Of a stretch of DNA of 34,544 nucleotides, positions 14 to 17,388 are shown piece after piece. Source of the DNA: a virus. The stretch covers positions 1 to 34,544 of the IMG/VR virus record IMGVR_UViG_3300021952_000020; one strand, given 5' to 3'. A program made the translations under genes and the position numbers. The notes under the pieces were generated by a model that did no database searches, was not told where the DNA came from, and saw nothing but the letters and a program-made list of their open reading frames with translations. How positions within the stretch are numbered: the first letter of the stretch is position 1; every line of letters begins with the position of its first letter.

Positions 14-96
14 TGGTGAGCTGCCCGGGATTCGAACCCGGAAAAACCTGCGGTCTAAACGCAGTAACTGTGCCAATTTGTATATGTCAGCAGCTC
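14..96 (-). tRNA. tRNA-Leu (anticodon UAG)
   Basis: Acceptor GAGCTGC/GCAGCTC, T arm CCGGG-TTCGAAT-CCCGG and an encoded CCA are clear. The anticodon stem CTGCG/CGCAG closes loop TTTAGAC, so the anticodon is UAG at 55-57 and reads CUA. The variable region is only about 6 nt, although leucine tRNAs are normally class II with a long variable arm, and the D stem is weak. This is the last tRNA of the array inside the window. Beyond its CCA, bases 1-13 match the start of the array's recurrent spacer hairpin. Confidence 0.85.
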
Positions 97-201
97 AATA
101 AATCTTTAAACCCTACATCTGAGTTTACCCATAGCAGCAAACTTCGCAGCAGATTCTGCGCTATATGCTGACGCAGCAGCTTTTTTTAATTTAAAATAAA
201 C
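97..201. other. Spacer without a recognised gene
   Basis: About 100 bases between tRNA-Leu and the permuted tRNA unit. On the minus strand they hold several GC-rich inverted pieces built from GCTGC and GCAGA words. An open reading frame crosses them but has no ribosome binding site and continues through tRNA sequence, so I do not call it. Confidence 0.4.
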
Positions 202-315
202 AGGATGTATTCTTTGGGCTGACACTCTACCAACTGAGCTACAAGGTGCATTCACACCTTGGGTGGACTCGAACCACCGACGTTCTGCGTTTAAGAAGAT
301 TGCTGCAAACATCCT
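202..315 (-). tRNA. Circularly permuted tRNA in a spacer hairpin (anticodon probably UAA)
   Basis: Read on the minus strand, the 3' part of a tRNA comes first: loop CTTAAAC (295-289), GCAGA (288-284), variable ACGTC, T arm GGTGG-TTCGAGT-CCACC (278-262) and acceptor strand CAAGGTG (261-255). A 6-nt linker follows (254-249), then the 5' part: acceptor CACCTTG (248-242), D arm with GCTC/GAGT and a GG-containing loop, and TCAGC (222-218). The acceptor strands pair in all 7 positions. The anticodon stem TCAGC/GCAGA pairs 4 of 5. The split lies in the anticodon loop, which would read UAA (Leu). The unit is closed by an inner stem TTCTT/AAGAA and an outer stem AGGATGT/ACATCCT. No CCA is encoded. A dead tandem-duplication remnant is possible. 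Confidence 0.65.
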
Positions 316-426: not shown

Positions 427-510
427 TGGTGGATAGTCACGGTAACGATCCGTGCGGGCTGAAGCAAGATCTTTACAGGCTCTCTCACCTCCTTAGTGGT
501 CTAACTATCC
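427..510 (-). tRNA. tRNA-Tyr (anticodon GUA), copy 1
   Basis: Acceptor GGATAGT/ACTATCC with encoded CCA. Anticodon loop CTGTAAA gives GUA at 474-476. The long variable region with a small GCT/AGC stem fits a class II tyrosine tRNA. Two points are unusual: the anticodon stem AGAGC/GATCT has a G-A mismatch, and the T-loop is ATCGTTA instead of the usual TTCRANY. A second, more regular tRNA-Tyr with the same anticodon lies at 2348-2434, so this copy may be diverging. Confidence 0.75.
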
Positions 511-523
511 ATTTGAAACTTAG

Positions 524-580
524 TACTCCCACGGGGATTCGAACCCACGTCGTTCCAGCCCATCTGACCGGTCTTACTAA
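524..580 (-). pseudogene. 3' part of a tRNA (possibly split or degenerate)
   Basis: A T arm with loop TTCGAAT and a GGG/CCC core, plus a 3' acceptor strand TGGGAGT with discriminator A, are visible. An anticodon-like arm CCGGT-CAGATGG-GCTGG lies upstream on the minus strand, with A instead of T before the putative anticodon. No matching 5' acceptor strand is adjacent. A complement, GCTCCCA, occurs at 1375-1381 on the far side of the homing endonuclease gene. This is either a decayed tRNA or the 3' half of one broken up by insertion. CCA is not encoded (CTA instead). Confidence 0.4.
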
Positions 581-581
581 T

Positions 582-674
582 TGGTAGTCCAGCTGGGTAA
601 CGCTCCCAGGACTTGCCCTCATCTAGAGCCTTGGCAGTTTATAAATCTGCGTGTTTTCTTTAAACTACTGGACC
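582..674 (-). tRNA. Degenerate class II tRNA (anticodon reads UAU)
   Basis: Acceptor GGTCCAG/CTGGACT pairs over 7 bp (one G-U) with discriminator A and encoded CCA. T arm CTGGG-AGCGTTA-CCCAG has a non-canonical loop. The D arm GTTT-AAAGA-AAAC lacks the GG pair. The anticodon stem is 4 bp with an A-A mismatch next to loop TTTATAA, giving UAU (641-643), formally isoleucine for AUA. The variable arm is long with its own stem. The first 10 bases overlap the 3' end of the homing endonuclease gene, whose stop codon lies inside the tRNA. Confidence 0.55.
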
Positions 675-1321
675 AATGTTTTTATAAACTCTAAATTTAT
701 TTGTCTATCTGATAAAATCACTACTACAATATCGTTAATTTCCATAGCAGATTCAATCTTGCGTCGATCCATTTTTATTAAATAATCGTTCTTTGGATCT
801 AAAAATATGTTATGTTTTGGAAGATAAAAATCTGGAATATACCTACGAATTTTTCCATTGTCGTTCCACTTATAACCTTGCCTAACTTTAACCCATTCTA
901 TATCTAACTTATCAAGTATTTCTGCAACTCTAACCTCATAAGACGATTCTAAAATGACACTAGGTTTATATTCAACATTTTTACTGTATTTCGAATGTTT
1001 AGCTAATCGTTCACATGCTTTGATTGACAACAAATCTTTGGTGGTTTCTGAGTGGCGGAACGTTCCAGCCTCAAACCCGCCCATCGAGGCACCAAGTTTG
1101 CCATAATATGATTGTTTGTCTCTATTGACATGACTTCGGCTAACATGCCCGCAAAGCCCAGCCCTACTATTAAACACCTTTCCACACACATCGCAGAAAC
1201 ACTCGACCATTTTCGATAAATACGAAGCGTTTCTATTAGGATTTAATTTACATAATCGTTCATGATTATGAAGTGAATTTAAATTTTTACATTCTTTGTT
1301 ACAAAATTTACATACTAGCAT
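665..1321 (-). CDS. Zinc-finger PD-(D/E)XK homing endonuclease
   Basis: A 218-residue protein with two N-terminal zinc-finger motifs: C4/C7 with H19/C23, and a C2H2 finger around residues 42-65 (CDVCG with HVSRSH). The C-terminal half has a PD-(D/E)XK nuclease signature: a Glu in SSYEVR, PDF in YIPDFYLP and DPK in IFLDPK. Free-standing endonucleases of this build occur in T4-like phages as homing enzymes that cut intron-less or gene-less alleles. It starts at ATG 1321 behind GAGG with good spacing and ends inside a downstream tRNA gene on the same strand. Its place within a tRNA array suggests recent insertion, perhaps breaking a tRNA (see 524-580 and 1340-1381). The specific cleavage site is unknown. 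Confidence 0.75.
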   Translation of the reverse strand: MLVCKFCNKECKNLNSLHNHERLCKLNPNRNASYLSKMVECFCDVCGKVFNSRAGLCGHVSRSHVNRDKQSYYGKLGASMGGFEAGTFRHSETTKDLLSIKACERLAKHSKYSKNVEYKPSVILESSYEVRVAEILDKLDIEWVKVRQGYKWNDNGKIRRYIPDFYLPKHNIFLDPKNDYLIKMDRRKIESAMEINDIVVVILSDRQINLEFIKTLVQ

Positions 1322-1339
1322 AAGTTATTCCTCTTATGC

Positions 1340-1381
1340 TATTTATGATTAAATCTTCGCCGCATGCCAATGCTTGGGAGC
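1340..1381 (-). pseudogene. Possible 5' part of a tRNA upstream of the homing endonuclease
   Basis: On the minus strand GCTCCCA (1381-1375) would pair over 7 bp with TGGGAGT at 525-531. It is followed by AG and a GCAT/ATGC pairing that could be a shortened D stem. The intact 3' part lies some 800 bases downstream, beyond the endonuclease gene and another tRNA. The complementarity is the only strong support, and a 7-nt match can arise by chance. Confidence 0.25.
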
Positions 1382-1393
1382 AATTTTGAAACT

Positions 1394-1479
1394 TGGTGCT
1401 GAGTGTAGGATTCGAACCTGCGGGGGATTACTCCGGTTGCTTACAAGGCAACTGCCGTCAACCACTTGGCTAACTCAGC
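1394..1479 (-). tRNA. tRNA-Thr (anticodon UGU) with long variable arm
   Basis: Acceptor GCTGAGT/ACTCAGC, discriminator A, encoded CCA. Anticodon stem GTTGC/GCAAC closes CTTGTAA, giving UGU (1443-1445). The variable region is 14 nt with GGA/TCC pairing, and the D arm resembles serine and leucine tRNAs. That is a class II body on a threonine anticodon, since normal threonine tRNAs have a 5-nt variable loop. The tRNA-Thr of phage T4 has the same anticodon loop and a similar acceptor end, so Thr identity is plausible. Confidence 0.8.
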
Positions 1480-1489
1480 AATAATAAAT

Positions 1490-1565
1490 TGGTACACCCA
1501 TACGGAATCGAACCGTCTCCTCATCCTCTTCAGGGACACGCGCAGACCACTTACGCCATAGGTGC
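1490..1565 (-). tRNA. tRNA-Phe (anticodon GAA)
   Basis: Acceptor GCACCTA/TGGGTGT, discriminator A, encoded CCA. D stem GCGT/GCGC with GG in the loop, anticodon loop CTGAAGA giving GAA at 1529-1531, T-loop TTCGATT. The anticodon stem relies on two G-U pairs. It follows tRNA-Trp by a few bases in the direction of transcription. Confidence 0.85.
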
Positions 1566-1571
1566 ATCGTT

Positions 1572-1645
1572 CGGCAGGAGTAGATAGAATCGAACTATCA
1601 TAGAGTGCTTTGGAGACACCCACACTACCATTGTGTTATACTCCT
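1572..1645 (-). tRNA. tRNA-Trp (anticodon CCA)
   Basis: Acceptor AGGAGTA/TACTCCT with discriminator G, D stem ACAC/GTGT, anticodon loop CTCCAAA giving CCA at 1611-1613, T arm GATAG-TTCGATT-CTATC. The three bases after the discriminator are CCG, so the terminal A must come from repair by nucleotidyltransferase. The anticodon CCA decodes UGG only, so there is no UGA-reading tRNA here. Confidence 0.85.
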
Positions 1646-1656
1646 AAAAATTAAAC

Positions 1657-1718
1657 AGGATTCCATTTTTGTCAATGTATCAGATTGATTTTATAAAAAT
1701 GTTTGCTGAAAGAATCCT
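1657..1718 (-). repeat. Inter-tRNA spacer hairpin, copy B
   Basis: Stem AGGATTC/GAATCCT (1657-1663 with 1712-1718) lies after the CCA of tRNA-Pro. It encloses the conserved TTTCAGCAAAC on the 5' side of the RNA and an inner stem CATTTTT/AAAAATG. GTTTA follows the stem and could pair with AAAC of the conserved motif as a pseudoknot. One of six copies in this array. Confidence 0.7.
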
Positions 1719-1724
1719 AAAACT

Positions 1725-1802
1725 TGGTCTCTCGCACACGATTCGAACGTGCATCCTCTACGCCCCAAACGTAGTGACTTAACCAGATTAGCCCAACGAG
1801 AG
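1725..1802 (-). tRNA. tRNA-Pro (anticodon UGG)
   Basis: Acceptor CTCTCGT/GCGAGAG, discriminator A, encoded CCA. Anticodon stem CTACG/CGTAG closes TTTGGGG, giving UGG at 1765-1767. T arm GCACG-TTCGAAT-CGTGT. The D stem has only three pairs. Its CCA is followed by spacer hairpin copy B. Confidence 0.9.
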
Positions 1803-1810
1803 ATAAAACT

Positions 1811-1886
1811 TGGCACTGCTGACGGGAGTCGAACCCGCGTATCTCGCTAGACAGGCGAGTATAATGAGCCGTTATATGACAGCAGT
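1811..1886 (-). tRNA. tRNA-Asp (anticodon GUC)
   Basis: Acceptor ACTGCTG/CAGCAGT, discriminator G, encoded CCA. Anticodon stem CTCGC/GCGAG closes CTGTCTA, giving GUC at 1850-1852. T arm GCGGG-TTCGACT-CCCGT. Discriminator G is the normal identity element for aspartate tRNAs. The acceptor stem is identical in sequence to that of the tRNA-Glu at 2681-2755. Confidence 0.9.
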
Positions 1887-1898
1887 ATAAAACTTGAC

Positions 1899-1952
1899 AG
1901 GATGAAACTTTTTCGATTAACGGTCGATTGTTTAGAGTGCTGAACTCATCCT
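1899..1952 (-). repeat. Inter-tRNA spacer hairpin, copy C
   Basis: Stem AGGATGA/TCATCCT after the CCA of tRNA-Ala. It encloses TTCAGCA, a shortened version of the conserved motif, and a CGA/TCG inner pairing. The two stem strands differ from the other copies by matching changes. Confidence 0.65.
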
Positions 1953-1960
1953 TGAAACCT

Positions 1961-2036
1961 TGGTGGAGTTGGCGAGCCTCGAACTCGCAAATGTCTGCTT
2001 GCAAAGCAGGTGCTGTACCAATTGAGCCACAACCCC
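1961..2036 (-). tRNA. tRNA-Ala (anticodon UGC)
   Basis: Acceptor GGGGTTG/CAACTCC (one G-U), discriminator A, encoded CCA. D arm GCTC/CAGC with GG, anticodon stem CCTGC/GCAGA closing TTTGCAA, giving UGC at 2001-2003. T arm GCGAG-TTCGAGG-CTCGC. A regular, functional-looking tRNA. The G3-U70 alanine identity pair is present as the third acceptor pair. Confidence 0.92.
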
Positions 2037-2347
2037 ATGAAATTCTAATATGCAAATAGTAAATTATGAATTAACCACTTGCATATTACCTTTCAGTAAT
2101 ACGGTTCTACTTTGGCTTTTCAACTATGATCTCGTCCACCAATGCTGGGCATGACTTCCAACACGGCGAACCTAAGAACTTGTACTATACAGTTGATTTA
2201 TACCCTCGGAAGTATCCGATATTAGTATCACGGGGTTTACATCATAAGACAATACGTTCTTTGAGACTCGGTATCCAAATTTTGCTAACAGATAGAACTA
2301 CCTGCGATGCCCGACGACATCTATTTGAGGTGTACACCCCAAAATTC
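2037..2347 (-). other. Gene-free, hairpin-rich stretch between tRNA-Ala and tRNA-Tyr
   Basis: No tRNA or credible reading frame is visible. A perfect 10-bp hairpin, TAATATGCAA/TTGCATATTA (2046-2055 with 2079-2088), lies just upstream of tRNA-Ala. Further pairings are CAGGTA-GTTC-TATCTG, GGGCAT/ATGCCC about 150 nt apart, TCGG-ATACTT-CCGA, and GGGGTnTAC with GTAnACCCC. Together they suggest a folded RNA of about 250 nt. I see none of the conserved core sequences of group I introns, RNase P or tmRNA. Confidence 0.4.
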
Positions 2348-2434
2348 TGGTGGTTGCCCTAGGAATCGAACCTAGCCAGCCCTATGAGCTTCGGATTTAC
2401 AGTCCGAGCCGCGTCCATAGCGGTATATGCAACC
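2348..2434 (-). tRNA. tRNA-Tyr (anticodon GUA), copy 2
   Basis: Acceptor GGTTGC/GCAACC, discriminator A, encoded CCA. D arm CCGC-TATGGAC-GCGG, anticodon stem TCGGA/TCCGA closing CTGTAAA, giving GUA at 2398-2400. The class II variable arm and T arm CTAGG-TTCGATT-CCTAG are regular. It is the better preserved of the two tyrosine tRNAs. Confidence 0.9.
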
Positions 2435-2440
2435 AATTAA

Positions 2441-2545
2441 AGCATTGAGCTGTCTAGGTTGGACTCGAACCAACAAAGGGATTAACCCATACTCGATTAA
2501 CAGTCGAGGCCGATGCCTATTCCGGTCACTAGACAGCTCAATGCT
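2441..2545 (-). tRNA. tRNA-Asn (anticodon GUU), extended acceptor stem, long variable arm
   Basis: The tRNA body spans 2450-2536: acceptor CTGTCTA/TAGACAG, anticodon stem CTCGA/TCGAG closing CTGTTAA (GUU at 2499-2501), T arm GTTGG-TTCGAGT-CCAAC. No CCA is encoded. The flanks 2441-2449 and 2537-2545 are complementary (AGCATTGAG/CTCAATGCT) and lengthen the acceptor helix to about 16 bp in the precursor. The variable region is about 17 nt with a GGG/CCC stem, unlike ordinary asparagine tRNAs. Maturation must open this helix and add CCA. Confidence 0.8.
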
Positions 2546-2558
2546 CTTATTACTAAAC

Positions 2559-2674
2559 AGGATCTCTCTTTTAAGTGCTATCCGCTACACCACACAAAGT
2601 TTTACCTTTGCGCTGGGATTCGAACCCAGCCCGTTTTCGCTCAATGAAATTAGAAAGGTTGCTGAAAAGATCCT
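2559..2674 (-). tRNA. Circularly permuted tRNA in a spacer hairpin (anticodon probably UGA)
   Basis: Minus-strand order is: anticodon arm TTTC-ATTGAGC-GAAA (2649-2635, anticodon UGA at 2641-2643, U33 present), variable ACGGG, T arm CTGGG-TTCGAAT-CCCAG (2629-2613), acceptor strand CGCAAAG (2612-2606), 6-nt linker GTAAAA, acceptor strand CTTTGTG (2599-2593), TG, D arm GTGT-AGCGGATA-GCAC (to 2575). Acceptor strands pair in 7 of 7. The new ends lie between D arm and anticodon arm. They are joined by inner stem CTTTCTAA/TTAAAAG (one bulge) and outer stem AGGATC/GATCCT of the spacer hairpin. Anticodon UGA would be serine, yet the variable loop is short. No CCA is encoded. It could be a remnant. Confidence 0.7.
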
Positions 2675-2680
2675 AAAACT

Positions 2681-2755
2681 TGGTACTGCTGACGGGTTTC
2701 GATCCCGCTTCCTTACCGTGAAAGGGTAATGTCCTAGCCACTAGACGACAGCAGT
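2681..2755 (-). tRNA. tRNA-Glu (anticodon UUC)
   Basis: Acceptor ACTGCTG/CAGCAGT, discriminator A, encoded CCA. Anticodon stem TTACC/GGTAA closes CTTTCAC, giving UUC at 2720-2722. T arm GCGGG-ATCGAAA-CCCGT, with A instead of T at the first loop position. Its CCA is followed by the spacer hairpin that holds the permuted tRNA at 2559-2674. Confidence 0.9.
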
Positions 2756-2782
2756 ATAACTACGTTCACTTACAAGTGAATT

Positions 2783-2857
2783 TGGCTGAGGAGGAAAGAC
2801 TCGAACTTTCTAACCTGAGGTCAAAGCTCAGTATCCATACCCTTGGATATCTCCCCA
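2783..2857 (-). tRNA. tRNA-Gln (anticodon UUG)
   Basis: Acceptor TGGGGAG/CTCCTCA, discriminator G, encoded CCA. D stem ATCC/GGAT, anticodon stem CTGAG/CTCAG closing CTTTGAC, giving UUG at 2822-2824. T arm GAAAG-TTCGAGT-CTTTC. The U1-A72 first pair is typical of bacterial glutamine tRNAs. Confidence 0.9.
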
Positions 2858-2870
2858 TTAAACTTCTAAC

Positions 2871-2927
2871 AGAATACCGTTTGCTTTCACAGCCTATAGT
2901 GAATTTAGTGTTTGCTGAAAGTATTCT
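2871..2927 (-). repeat. Inter-tRNA spacer hairpin, copy E
   Basis: Stem AGAATAC/GTATTCT after the CCA of tRNA-Gly. It encloses TTTCAGCAAACA and an inner TTCAC/GTGAA hairpin, and is followed by GTTAG. The stem differs from copies A-D on both strands, keeping pairing. Confidence 0.7.
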
Positions 2928-2934
2928 AAAATTT

Positions 2935-3010
2935 TGGAGCGGATGACGTGATTCGAACACGCGACGAACGGCTTGGAAGGCCGACACTCTACCAACTGAG
3001 TTACATCCGC
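2935..3010 (-). tRNA. tRNA-Gly (anticodon UCC)
   Basis: Acceptor GCGGATG/CATCCGC, discriminator U, encoded CCA. D arm ACTC/GAGT with GG, anticodon loop CTTCCAA giving UCC at 2975-2977, T arm GCGTG-TTCGAAT-CACGT. Discriminator U is usual for glycine tRNAs. The D arm and position 26 are nearly the same as in the permuted tRNA at 202-315. Confidence 0.9.
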
Positions 3011-3024
3011 ATCGTTAAATAAAC

Positions 3025-3081
3025 AGAATGGAATTTGTCGCGAGACATTGAAAGATCGCTGTTGTTTGCAGTATCCATTCT
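3025..3081 (-). repeat. Inter-tRNA spacer hairpin, copy F
   Basis: Stem AGAATGGA/TCCATTCT after the CCA of tRNA-Ile. It encloses CTGCAAACA and is followed by TGTTTA, which can pair with AAACA. It is the most upstream copy in the direction of transcription. Confidence 0.65.
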
Positions 3082-3087
3082 AAATTT

Positions 3088-3162
3088 TGGTGCATCACCT
3101 TGGGATCGAACCAAGGACTTATCACTTATCAAGCGATTACTCTACCACTGAGTTAGTGATGC
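3088..3162 (-). tRNA. tRNA-Ile (anticodon GAU)
   Basis: Acceptor GCATCAC/GTGATGC, discriminator A, encoded CCA. D arm ACTC/GAGT, anticodon loop TTGATAA giving GAU at 3128-3130, T arm CTTGG-TTCGATC-CCAAG. The anticodon stem ATCGC/GTGAT contains one C-T mismatch. Confidence 0.88.
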
Positions 3163-3321
3163 GATAAAAAATGTACTTCTGAACTAATTGGTGGTTGATA
3201 GTTCTACTAATAAACTATCAACCTTAAATTTGATGTGAGCTCTTTCGATGCAATTGCATGAACCTAACTATCGCTTGATATTATCTCAATTAGGGCCTCT
3301 TCATGCAACCTACTCACAACA
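3163..3321. other. Spacer with two long hairpins
   Basis: No gene is visible. A perfect 11-bp hairpin GGTTGATAGTT/AACTATCAACC (3193-3203 with 3213-3223, 9-nt loop) has no U-run on either side. A second, larger hairpin pairs TTGCATGAA (3254-3262) with TTCATGCAA (3300-3308) and CCTAA with TTAGG inside it. Both lie between tRNA-Ile and a degenerate tRNA. They may be processing signals of the polycistronic tRNA precursor. Confidence 0.4.
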
Positions 3322-3399
3322 TTAACAACGTCGGAATCGAACCGTGGAACTTTTAACCACTGTGTGATCTCACAGTATGCCACCAAGCATTCATTGTTA
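3322..3399 (-). tRNA. Degenerate class II tRNA (identity unclear)
   Basis: Acceptor TAACA(A/T) pairs with GTTGTTA over 7 bp, D arm ATGC-TTGGTG-GCAT with GG, T-loop TTCGATT. The anticodon stem CTGTG/CACAG closes only 6 nt, AGATCA, without the invariant U33, so no anticodon can be assigned. The variable arm is long (GTGG/CCAC). CCA is not encoded. It may be inactive or serve another purpose. Confidence 0.5.
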
Positions 3400-3438
3400 A
3401 TCGTTTGAAGTTCTGAAAATTTCCAAAACTTCGAATGT

Positions 3439-3507
3439 AGCGGACGTGGGATTCGAACCCCGCATCAGGGTTATGAGCCCTGCGTTCTACCGTTAAACTA
3501 CCTCCGC
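3439..3507 (-). tRNA. tRNA-Met (anticodon CAU)
   Basis: Acceptor GCGGAGG/CGTCCGC with one G-G mismatch, D arm GTTT-AACGGTA-GAAC, anticodon stem CAGGG/CCCTG closing CTCATAA, giving CAU at 3473-3475. T arm reduced to GGG/CCC around TTCGAAT, very short variable region, no CCA. If C34 is modified to lysidine it would read AUA as isoleucine instead; the sequence cannot decide this. Confidence 0.75.
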
Positions 3508-3540
3508 AACTTGTAACACACTCTTATCGAATGTGTATAA

Positions 3541-3619
3541 CTAACGATTCAGTGTTAGCAGATTTGAACTGCTATCTCGCCATAAGCGATGTTACTTACA
3601 CCAAACACTAACTCGTTAG
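3541..3619 (-). tRNA. Short tRNA-like gene (anticodon reads UAU) with extended acceptor stem
   Basis: The core at 3550-3610 has acceptor TAGTGTT/AACACTG, T arm AGCAG-TTCAAAT-CTGCT, a minimal D region without GG, and an anticodon arm whose loop CTTATGG reads UAU (3582-3584). It is only about 60 nt long. Flanks CTAACGA/TCGTTAG (3541-3547 with 3613-3619) extend the acceptor helix as in the tRNA-Asn precursor. No CCA is encoded. It is the first tRNA-like gene of the array in the direction of transcription. Confidence 0.5.
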
Positions 3620-11403: not shown

Positions 11404-11622
11404 ATGTGCCATACAAAATTTTCATTAGAAGGGCTGAAACGGTTACAACGTGCTGGTGGTATAATGTACGTTCAACTTCCAAAAGGCGTATCTACAGTTT
11501 CACAATTGCGCGAATGTTGTAACGAAACCGTACCTGACGAACTGGTAACCGCATGGTTTAACTGCGTTACTGCAAAGCTGGAATTAGAAGCAGCTATGTC
11601 TAAATTTGGATTGGGCGAATAA
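11404..11622 (+). CDS. Hypothetical protein upstream of RNA ligase
   Basis: 72 residues, soluble, with AAAGGAGCC 5 bases before the ATG. No known motif; three cysteines (C2, C37, C38) and a C-terminal helix (LELEAAMSKFG). It is the first gene after the promoter at 11328 and is followed by the RNA ligase start within two bases of its stop. Confidence 0.6.
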   Translation: MCHTKFSLEGLKRLQRAGGIMYVQLPKGVSTVSQLRECCNETVPDELVTAWFNCVTAKLELEAAMSKFGLGE

Positions 11623-11623
11623 A

Positions 11624-12700
11624 ATGAGCTTCTACAACATACCAAAGAATTTGACAGACTTAAATCACTTCCGCAACAATCCTATGGTGCAGTTTAAGGA
11701 AGAAACTGTAGGTGGCGTTGAAGTTGTTATCCCGTGTTACATGATCGCCGATGCTGATCTGTGGAAGCAGCCGTTCGCAACTGAATTGCGAGGACACGTT
11801 TTCCGAAAAGACACGGGTGAGTTAATTTCCGCCGCATTGCCAAAATTCTTCAACGTAGGTGAAAAGGTGGATACTCAGCGACACATTCTTCCTTGGGACG
11901 AAGTGGCTAGTATTGCTGATAAACGCGACGGTTCAATGATCACGTTTGCCGTTATCAATGGAAAGGTGTATGCAAAAACCAAAAAATCGTTCTACTCGGA
12001 TGTTGCAAAACTTGCACAGGCGCATTTAGATCGCGCTGAATCTGAAGGGGTGGGGTCGCATATCGCTTACGAGTTGGCGTCGGGTCGGTCTCCTGTATAT
12101 GAATTTTGGCACCCAGAGTGGCAAATCGTGTTGAACTACGGATCTGTCCCATCTGCAACATTTCTCGGTATTCGAGACATGAATAACGGAGAATGGCAAC
12201 CGGAACACATCGATACAACTGCCCGAATTCAAGACTTAGAAACCTGGCAATATACCGCAGAAGGTGTCGAGGGTGTTGTTGTACAGTTTAAATCCGGGTT
12301 GGTGGTAAAAGCGAAAACTGCCTGGTATTTGCGCCAGCACCGCGTTCAAACTGAACTTCGTGAACGCGACGTTGCTGAAATGGCAGCAGACGAAAAATTG
12401 GACGATGTTAAATCTGCCATTTCAGAAGCCGGATTGGAGTTAGCGTTGGTTGAAGATATCGAACGTCGTGTTGCGGCTGATATCAATACGGTCAGAAACG
12501 AAGTGTTAAAAGTCGTTGCAAATGCAAAACTCGCAAACATTCAAACACCAAAAGAAATGGCAATCCGATATAAAGGGCACATCTGGTTCGGGCTTATTAT
12601 GAACGAATTTCGTGGTTTGGAAACAGACTACGTTTCCCATTTCAAGAAGAATATGTTAGCGACATATTCCTTGCGATGCGTTTACAACACGAAATTTTAA
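11624..12700 (+). CDS. T4 Rnl1-type RNA ligase
   Basis: 358 residues from ATG 11624; an in-frame upstream TTG would overlap the gene before. It joins 5'-phosphate and 3'-hydroxyl RNA ends with ATP. Motif I KRDGS has the adenylated lysine at about 100, close to Lys99 of T4 Rnl1. Upstream LRGHVFR and LPKFFNVGE match the family's N-terminal signature. Motif III is around YELASG, motif IV EGVVVQF, motif V VVKAKTAWYL. The C-terminal helical domain, which gives tRNA specificity in T4 Rnl1, is present (about 260-358). In T4 this enzyme reseals tRNA cut in the anticodon loop, and the kinase/phosphatase partner is not in this window. The phage's permuted tRNAs would be natural substrates. Confidence 0.9.
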   Translation: MSFYNIPKNLTDLNHFRNNPMVQFKEETVGGVEVVIPCYMIADADLWKQPFATELRGHVFRKDTGELISAALPKFFNVGEKVDTQRHILPWDEVASIADKRDGSMITFAVINGKVYAKTKKSFYSDVAKLAQAHLDRAESEGVGSHIAYELASGRSPVYEFWHPEWQIVLNYGSVPSATFLGIRDMNNGEWQPEHIDTTARIQDLETWQYTAEGVEGVVVQFKSGLVVKAKTAWYLRQHRVQTELRERDVAEMAADEKLDDVKSAISEAGLELALVEDIERRVAADINTVRNEVLKVVANAKLANIQTPKEMAIRYKGHIWFGLIMNEFRGLETDYVSHFKKNMLATYSLRCVYNTKF

Positions 12701-15897: not shown

Positions 15898-17388
15898 ATG
15901 GCGTCAGCATTAGAAAAACTACGCAAGGCCTCTACAATCAAAGACACTGCGATTTTATCACAGTCTGTATTTTTTGAAGATAAGGACAGAATTTCTGTCC
16001 CAGTGCCCATTCTTAATGTGGCGTTAGGCGGGTCTTTATTTGGCGGTCTTACTCCTGGCTTGACCATGTGGGCTGGACCGTCAAAGCACTTCAAGACTTC
16101 GTTTAGCCTGTTGATGGCAAAGGCGTACCTTGATAAGTACCCCGAAGCGGTTTTACTATTCTACGATTCTGAGTTTGGAACCCCGCAGTCATATTTCAAA
16201 TCGTTCGGTATCGACGCAGATCGGGTAGTACATACGCCGATCACAGATATCGAAGTTCTGAAGCATGATTTAGTGACACAGATGCAAGGGTTATCACGTG
16301 GGGACAAAGTCATTATTTTAATTGACTCCATCGGAAACTTAGCATCCAAAAAAGAAATGGACGATGCGCTCGAAGGCAAAACTGTCGCTGACATGACTAG
16401 AGCTAAACAACTGAAGTCGCTGTTCCGTATGGTTACCCCGTACTTAACGATGAAAAACATCCCGTTGATTGCAGTGAACCACACTTATAAGACGCTCGAG
16501 CTTTACGCAAAGGACGTCGTTGGTGGAGGTTGTGTTGTTGAAGGGACGAAGATTCGTCTTGCTGATGGTTCTCTGAAATCAGTTGAAGACTTTGTCGTTG
16601 GTGATTTGGTAGAAACTAAGTTAGGTCCTAAACGTGTTTCTGCAACCTGGAATCCTACTACGCTAGACGATGGGGAGCCCGAGTGCTTCCAAGTTGTATT
16701 TGACAATCCATTTGTTGATAACGACTTTGTCGTATGTTCTGATAAGCATAAGTTTTTGGTGAACGGTCAATGGGTAGAAGCAAAAAATCTGTCAGAGTGT
16801 GAGGTTGTTGATTCAGTGAGTGGGGGTAGAGTTAAACTAGCTTCAGTTACACCTATCGGACGCCAAAAAGTGTACGACTTGTCCGTAGAAGATGCCGAAC
16901 ACTATGTCCTTGAACATGGTGTTGTAACACATAACACCGGAAGTTACTACAGTTCCGACAATATCTTTATTGTTGGTCGGCGTCAGGAAAAGGACGGGGA
17001 CGAAGTATCCGGCTATTCCTTTATCATTAACGTAGAGAAGTCCCGTTATGTGAAAGAGAAGTCTAAGATTCCGGTGACCGTTCTGTACGACGGCGGTATT
17101 AGCCGTTATAGTGGCATTTTTGATCTTGCGTTAGAATCCGGTCACATTGTCAAAGCTGCATCGCAAGGGTTCTATCAATTGTGTGACGTAGATACTGGCG
17201 AAGTTAGCGAAAAGAAATTGCGCCGAGCGGCTATTGAGACGGATAGCTCTATCATGGAAAGTATTTTAAACCACCCGAAATTTGACGAATTCGTCATTAA
17301 GACGTATCGACTGGCAGAAGGTGCTATGATCCAAGACGTTCCTGTGTTTAGTACACTGGGGCCAGATTCAGAGGTTCCAAATGAGTGA
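15898..17388 (+). CDS. uvsX: UvsX/RecA-type recombinase containing an intein
   Basis: 496 residues before splicing, 361 after. Forms filaments on single-stranded DNA and promotes strand exchange. Walker A is GPSKHFKTS (60-68), as in T4 UvsX GPSKSFKS. Walker B is VIILIDS (138-144). After the intein the protein resumes with TGSYYSSDNIFIVGRR, the L2 to C-terminal core. The intein runs from Cys212 to Asn346 and separates VVGGG from TGSYY, the DNA-binding loop region. Start ATG 15898 follows AAAGGTTAAG and the stop of the preceding small gene. The 3' end overlaps the next gene by 8 bases. Confidence 0.9.
   Translation: MASALEKLRKASTIKDTAILSQSVFFEDKDRISVPVPILNVALGGSLFGGLTPGLTMWAGPSKHFKTSFSLLMAKAYLDKYPEAVLLFYDSEFGTPQSYFKSFGIDADRVVHTPITDIEVLKHDLVTQMQGLSRGDKVIILIDSIGNLASKKEMDDALEGKTVADMTRAKQLKSLFRMVTPYLTMKNIPLIAVNHTYKTLELYAKDVVGGGCVVEGTKIRLADGSLKSVEDFVVGDLVETKLGPKRVSATWNPTTLDDGEPECFQVVFDNPFVDNDFVVCSDKHKFLVNGQWVEAKNLSECEVVDSVSGGRVKLASVTPIGRQKVYDLSVEDAEHYVLEHGVVTHNTGSYYSSDNIFIVGRRQEKDGDEVSGYSFIINVEKSRYVKEKSKIPVTVLYDGGISRYSGIFDLALESGHIVKAASQGFYQLCDVDTGEVSEKKLRRAAIETDSSIMESILNHPKFDEFVIKTYRLAEGAMIQDVPVFSTLGPDSEVPNE
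16531..16935 (+). mobile_element. Mini-intein in UvsX
   Basis: 135 residues, in frame. Block A begins with Cys (CVVEGTKIRLADGS). Block B-like SDKHKFLVNGQWVEAKNL has the conserved His in SDKH, where most inteins have T..H. Block F YDLSVEDAEHYVLEHGV leads to the terminal HN. The first extein residue is Thr. No homing endonuclease domain is inserted, so it can splice but not move by itself. It lies at GGG/TG, a conserved loop in the recombinase. Confidence 0.9.

Follow-up and report, generated by a model that had tools for sequence, protein, structure and literature searches.

Why would a virus carry a transfer RNA (tRNA) gene with its two halves in the wrong order? The question is raised by IMG/VR virus record IMGVR_UViG_3300021952_000020. 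We analysed the whole record, 34,544 bases, hereafter called the window. On the minus strand, positions 202 to 315 hold an element (element A) in which the 3' part of a tRNA precedes the 5' part. Permuted tRNA genes are established in some red algae and archaea, where the ends are joined by the splicing endonuclease. A preliminary description of the locus likewise took element A for a tRNA gene matured by splicing. Here, we argue that element A instead specifies a phage Y-RNA-like noncoding RNA, with a tRNA-mimic module, and is not spliced into a tRNA. We put the probability of this reading at roughly three in four.

Element A holds a permuted tRNA within a shared scaffold

Element A is associated with a phage tRNA array that also contains elements B to F. 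All lie on the minus strand of the window.

202 to 315, minus strand: element A, putative Y-RNA-like scaffold plus permuted tRNA module; stem AGGATGT/ACATCCT, motif TTGCAGCAA, GTT at 199 to 201.
242 to 261, minus strand: acceptor hairpin of element A, CAAGGTG / TGAATG / CACCTTG; Watson-Crick pairs at 7 of 7 positions.
427 to 3508, minus strand: phage tRNA array, 15 tRNAs called by ARAGORN; the elements sit in array spacers.
2559 to 2674, minus strand: element B, scaffold plus permuted tRNA; acceptor CGCAAAG / CTTTGTG paired 7 of 7, linker GTAAAA, then GTT.
1657 to 1718, minus strand: element C, small type; hairpin TCAAT-CTGATAC-ATTGA (anticodon GAU); full-length match to Rfam family RF01414 at 1656 to 1717, 26.5 bits.
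2871 to 2927, minus strand: element D, hairpin TTCAC...GTGAA of the GGCTGTG class; full-length RF01414 match at 2870 to 2926, 23.9 bits.
3025 to 3081, minus strand: element E, scaffold variant CTGCAA; its interior belongs to the GTCT(A)GCGAC class, which recurs in many contigs.
1899 to 1952, minus strand: element F, divergent scaffold CAGCAC, then GTC; hairpin loop CCGTTAA (anticodon GUU), identical in locus L068.

Read from 315 to 202, element A begins with AGGATGT, TTGCAGCAA, TCTTCTTAAACGCAGAACGTC and a T arm (GGTGG TTCGAGT CCACC). Next come the 3' acceptor strand, CAAGGTG, a linker of 6 nucleotides, TGAATG, and the 5' acceptor strand, CACCTTG, followed by TA. The remainder consists of the D arm (GCTC AGTTGGTA GAGT), GTCAGCCCAAAGAAT and ACATCCT, after which GTT is found. 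Minimum free energy folding, with no tRNA input, recovers the outer stem along with the acceptor and both the T and D arms. The proposed anticodon stem, TCAGC/GCAGA, is paired at 4 of 5 positions, with one A-A mismatch.

These data confirm the permuted order, the fully paired acceptor, the short linker and the inner and outer stems already reported for this locus. Similarly, 202 and 315 are the exact ends of the element, and the data support a split on the 5' side of the anticodon loop, as had been proposed. The second copy that had been noted is element B (2674 to 2559), whose acceptor is just as complete. For the earlier assignment to Leu(UAA), UAA gives the most tRNA-like junction, with U33, but an alternative with 5 base pairs and no U33 is also present. 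Hence, the anticodon is uncertain. Note that our automatic junction finder gives an ambiguous split for several elements, A included.

Element B has the anticodon arm TTTC-ATTGAGC-GAAA. Its relatives can be aligned in L025, L028, L030 and L065 (our labels for collected loci), where the acceptors are changed yet paired. Elements C, D, E and F share the scaffold of A and B but have no tRNA body.

The scaffold is widespread and its terminal stem covaries

The scaffold consists of a terminal stem of 7 base pairs, the motif CAGCAA three nucleotides inside the stem, and G(TT) after it. In the window, the start reads AGRATNN and then NNN-CAGCAA, with CTGCAA replacing CAGCAA in E, and CAGCAC in F. At the end, the seven starting bases are answered by their complement, and G(TT) follows. 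We scanned viral contigs with the 5' side of the scaffold alone, TTTTAGRATNNTTNCAGCAA, and at least 119 stretches match. Among the matches listed, 104 of 115 distinct exact matches have the complementary 7-mer downstream, and GTT follows the stem in 92 of these 104. When stem letters were swapped, the mean was 2.0 and the maximum 6. The scaffold is present in more than 100 viral contigs and, where checked, the loci are mostly phage tRNA arrays. In a looser scan of the collected loci, 227 candidates had both ends as expected for an element. The scaffold pattern had 0 matches in bacterial genomes. BLASTN of a single small element against named phages found no match, and the same search with a single permuted element returned tRNA noise, Caulobacter phage CcrColossus excepted. 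The cargo of the scaffold varies, and includes permuted tRNAs, bare anticodon stem-loops and larger folds.

Permuted elements maintain acceptor pairing

We picked permuted elements without an acceptor criterion. Of these 28, 25 have acceptors paired at 6 or 7 of 7 positions, compared with about 10% when strands were swapped between elements. A second, independent scan of the collection required only CAGCAA, a T arm and a D arm. This gave 112 distinct matches, 94 of them with 6 or 7 acceptor pairs. An exact stem of 7 base pairs plus GTT was found in 43 matches, versus 1.6 with swapped stems, and stem sequences were far more diverse than AGGAT. The conservation proposed as a check beforehand is therefore evident in both sets. 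With more than 90 distinct examples, the remark that no phage case was known no longer holds. The split falls mostly at nucleotides 26 to 29, inside the anticodon stem on its 5' strand; in some elements, including A, it falls at nucleotides 30 to 33, close to the 5' side of the loop, and several are ambiguous.

Where an array changes fast, tRNAs that were duplicated in tandem and then partly deleted might leave degenerate copies of this general form. Arrays are often rearranged, and the L068 linker retains GCCA and spacer-like sequence. However, acceptor pairing is upheld with many pair types at nearly every position, the terminal stems covary, and loops and scaffold are conserved over many contigs. 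We consider such an origin highly improbable.

The scaffold carries several types of insert

Small elements (up to 80 nucleotides, n=129) are one further type. A hairpin with a stem of 5 base pairs and a loop of 7 nucleotides occurs in 64% of them, compared with 12% of shuffled sequences, and loops of 5, 6, 8 or 9 nucleotides are near background. For 47 of 82 such hairpins, the loop is identical to a real anticodon loop of an array tRNA, where 2.2 are expected with loops shuffled. None of the 82 is a whole-arm copy of a tRNA from the same locus, and the stems are AU-rich (G+C 20% versus 60%). As a separate observation, position 36 is U or A in 62 of 68 loops with U33 (t6A/i6A-type), against 53% of array tRNAs, and a composition bias may contribute to this difference. 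The hairpin class of element D, GGCTGTG, recurs in Synechococcus phage BUCT-ZZ01, which has four elements.

In a third type, D, anticodon and T arms are present and an outer stem replaces the acceptor (for example, in L039, L052 and L019). The fourth type consists of folds of 150 to 260 nucleotides without recognisable tRNA parts. Large folds on the scaffold, of 150 to 270 nucleotides and likewise without such parts, were seen at L055:9638, L102:9383, L070:2211, L069:5906 and L148:10859, and several contain conserved blocks such as GATAGGGTCTG...CCAGACCAGAAAATAAA.

Differing inserts between similar ends could also mark a mobile cassette, or a family of recombination sites, that captures tRNA parts by chance. 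Against this, the ends vary and covary, which is unneeded for a recombination site, and most elements are placed either in a tRNA array or close to a Ro60-type gene (see below). No associated recombinase turned up, none being sought. We give this idea hardly any credence.

Splicing is an unlikely explanation

In Cronobacter phage S13 and Citrobacter phage Ci1, open elements are accompanied by a different arrangement. Here, tRNAs with normal ends, Gly(UCC) in S13 and Glu(UUC) in Ci1, bear the scaffold as a closed hairpin at about nucleotide 28/29, right after the DUF2828 gene. These scaffold-bearing tRNAs are annotated as odd or pseudo tRNAs, and similar forms occur in phages Aeh1 and nt-1. Because the scaffold is closed inside tRNAs that are not permuted, the permuted form is the same RNA opened on the other side. 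Separately, L145:20704-20946, L146:17206-17319 and L149:4385-4506 appear as tRNAs with a scaffold hairpin in the anticodon arm. Public labels for these loci are tRNA-Ser, tRNA-OTHER, pseudo-tRNA and a 122-nucleotide tRNA-Val.

A genuine permuted tRNA gene would require the flanks to be cut, the ends at nucleotides 31/32 to be ligated, for instance by the phage's Rnl1-type ligase, and the linker to be removed, leaving a functional Leu(UAA) tRNA. Like the red algal and archaeal genes, the phage elements have the 3' half before the 5' half, paired acceptors and a short linker. All tRNA arms are present in element A, along with the complete acceptor and U33 at the preferred junction, and some relatives retain N73-CCA-like letters in their linkers. 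The window also encodes an RNA ligase 1 homologue (11606 to 12700, plus strand; phrog_562, PF09511). Unlike the red algal and archaeal genes, however, the phage elements have a conserved scaffold foreign to tRNA and family members with non-tRNA inserts, which splicing leaves unexplained. Furthermore, in four permuted elements the acceptor helix runs into the linker by 11 to 15 extra pairs, with differing sequences; the acceptor ends of these relatives are hence sealed. Some tRNAs of normal orientation contain the scaffold as well. The splicing endonuclease, PF01974, was found in 0 of 24 records, host enzymes being outside the search. Nor are ligases constant: Rnl1-type enzymes are in 2 of 18 records, Rnl2-type in 8 and RtcB in 2, and we rejected an RNA ligase as constant partner of the elements. 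Together with the splits that mostly fall within the anticodon stem, and with the YrlA match and Ro60-type genes described next, these points count against maturation by splicing, which we judge very unlikely.

Element A matches YrlA, a bacterial Y RNA, below the curated cut-off

As described (PMC8394870), YrlA combines an end stem, which binds Rsr/Ro60, with a domain that resembles the acceptor, D and T arms. With Rfam YrlA (RF02553), element A aligns at 199 to 315, minus strand, over model positions 1 to 114 of 114, with 33.0 bits and an E-value of 1.4e-4, as computed for 3.6 kb against 4,227 families at a relaxed threshold. The full model also matches permuted elements of L076, L033 and CcrColossus, and Mycobacterium phage Whirlwind gives a partial match with 38.3 bits. 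Ordinary neighbouring tandem tRNAs score about 20 to 22 bits. At the gathering threshold, Rfam finds only tRNA matches. Since all YrlA scores are below the gathering value of 69, we call the elements Y-RNA-like rather than certified YrlA. The likeness extends to the terminal stem that joins the ends, the module order (T arm, closed acceptor, D arm) and a Ro60-type gene in most carriers. Differences are that the phage elements are multi-copy across tRNA arrays, that the gene partner is mostly DUF2828 and not TROVE, and that mini versions with just an anticodon hairpin occur.

Most large carrier records encode a Ro60-type protein

Chen et al. 2014 is said to have placed Y RNAs near Ro60 in bacteria and phages. 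In Listeria phage CKA15, abundant candidate Y RNAs lie near an Rsr-like gene (PMC12282133). We pursued a Ro60 connection here because of the BLASTN match to CcrColossus, which has three RNAs, spelled differently but built alike, near a TROVE-like (Ro60) gene. A search for DUF2828 was prompted by a vWA protein adjoining the L068 array. DUF2828 was found in 14 of 18 searched records, which is 14 of 16 element-bearing IMG/VR records above 80 kb. TROVE was in 0 of 27 IMG/VR records of this first set. Among records above 90 kb in the set from the independent scan for permuted elements, DUF2828 was in 17 of 25 (16 over the cut-off) and TROVE in two others, 19 of 25 in total. In G008, the DUF2828 gene and an element are about 70 bases apart. 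In Whirlwind, two elements, one with a permuted tRNA and one small (loop CTGCTAA), are directly downstream of a gene for a 'Ro-like RNA binding protein'.

A DUF2828 protein is predicted to have the Ro60 fold, a helical ring plus vWA domain. Its AlphaFold model (predicted local distance difference test score, pLDDT, 75.6) was aligned to known structures with VIA-align. The ten best PDB matches are all Ro60/TROVE, with Z from 17.1 to 12.7; vWA-only entries come next, at Z 10.9. A search of the PDB by sequence only gave no match. Public annotations, 'Ro-like RNA binding protein' and 'Ro sixty-related', agree with a Ro60-type reading. DUF2828 is in 680 phage records of the collection.

Named tRNA phages point the same way. 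From a regular expression scan, sorted by eye, we judge elements to be real in 6 of 10 DUF2828-positive and 0 of 9 DUF2828-negative phages; one phage was scanned in part and the negative set is not random. Other matches in named phages were in coding sequence, with long inserts unlike tRNA, and seem to be chance hits.

The RNAs could also be stand-alone decoys, absorbing host anticodon nucleases with no involvement of a Ro60-type protein. Small-element loops do mimic real anticodon loops, on AU-rich stems that copy no whole arm from the locus, and among the loops are those of Lys(UUU), Arg(UCU), Tyr(GUA) and Asn(GUU). However, conservation of the stem and CAGCAA, and co-occurrence with Ro60-type genes, would then need a separate explanation, and the same scaffold bears non-tRNA inserts. 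We regard decoys acting alone as quite unlikely.

Small elements resemble Dictyostelium Class I RNA

Two small elements match the full model of Dictyostelium Class I RNA (RF01414), at L041:4463-4518 (34.7 bits; E-value 1.3e-5 on 91 bases) and L076:2702-2757 (33.4 bits). These, like the matches of elements C and D, are below the gathering value of 41.5. To our knowledge, there is no Ro60 link for Class I RNA. Class I RNA is defined by an end stem and a motif of 11 nucleotides beside the 5' strand (PMC7919456); the Rfam RF01414 consensus of this motif is CCUUACAGCAA. Shared features are the short end stem, a CUUACAGCAA-type motif by the 5' strand, a variable AU-rich interior and a size of about 55 nucleotides. 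Unlike the phage elements, Class I RNA, an orphan family of amoebae, is eukaryotic, and its only direct binder reported is the RNA recognition motif (RRM) protein Rnp1A/Cibp. The likeness is a lead that may reflect convergence. In a broader scheme, the stem and CAGCAA would define one RNA superfamily of phage Y-RNA-like and Class I RNAs, with a Ro60/DUF2828 partner, and phage arrays would supply baits that counter anticodon nucleases. This we think unlikely.

The elements can also be compared with rnaC and rnaD of phage T4, small stable RNAs of unexplained function inside a phage tRNA array. We rejected these as homologues; no CAGCAA scaffold was found, and T4 is without a DUF2828 match.

Discussion

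We propose that the scaffold, that is the stem of 7 base pairs and CAGCAA, would be the binding site for a Ro60-type protein of the phage (DUF2828 or TROVE), whose gene lies elsewhere in the genome. What remains of the RNA would be an effector module. In A and B, this would comprise a tRNA body, closed acceptor and anticodon arm; C, D and F would instead present a small fold, either a hairpin of anticodon type or one related to it. The genes of A and B read as permuted tRNAs because a tRNA body with a closed acceptor sits on the scaffold. A tRNA or anticodon-loop bait may thus be displayed on the Ro60-like ring. During infection, the bait might tie up or attract tRNA-directed enzymes, whether anticodon nucleases of the host or enzymes of decay and repair. 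Competitive inhibition of an anticodon nuclease by the tRNA-like domain of YrlA has been proposed (PMC7790460). Anticodon loops are kept in the phage elements and absent from the described YrlA domain, which suggests anticodon-reading enzymes as targets. A role as anticodon nuclease bait is a tentative suggestion, less likely than not. The main alternative, within a Y-RNA-like identity, is a tether for RNA decay or quality control, and we view this as only slightly less likely than the bait.

Several observations weigh against our interpretation. The YrlA score of element A, 33, is below the cut-off of 69, and for element B even the relaxed threshold gave no match to YrlA. Unlike YrlA, the phage elements retain an anticodon arm with a recognisable anticodon. 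A Ro60-type gene was not found in the L059 and L026 records (2 of 16) or in 6 of 25 records of the second set, though records of either set may be incomplete, and the window itself, a 34.5-kb fragment, has neither a DUF2828 nor a TROVE gene. The scaffold motif was not found in DUF2828 phages VpaE1, List-36, CP30A and OC; their partner RNAs, if any, must hence differ. Even so, we hold a Y-RNA-like identity of the elements to be likely.

The record is probably a fragment of a T4-like phage. Its gene content includes a tail tube cap, baseplate hub, DnaB, UvsX split by an intein, and RNA ligase 1. The UvsX-like recombinase, with the probable intein interrupting it, is at 15898 to 17388 (plus strand). 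A zinc-finger endonuclease-like gene, probably a homing endonuclease, lies within the tRNA array at 665 to 1321 (minus strand). The array strand spans about 3510 to 1. A Leu(UAG) tRNA at 19 to 91 (minus strand; Rfam tRNA score 23.4 bits) was missed by ARAGORN, which also left uncalled extra tRNA-like sequences with odd anticodon loops at 3300 to 3400 and 3540 to 3600 (minus strand). The array strand leaves the window within AAGTTTTAAGGAT, possibly the start of another element.

Our interpretation accounts for the permuted tRNAs of phage genomes with no need for splicing. It also suggests what many so far unexplained spacers in phage tRNA arrays are, and provides a candidate RNA partner for DUF2828. 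Phages Whirlwind, S13, nt-1 and BUCT-ZZ01 are isolates that allow a direct test. If the anticodon hairpins are baits, they would be a second RNA-based phage answer to tRNA-cutting defences, beside spare tRNAs and ligases.
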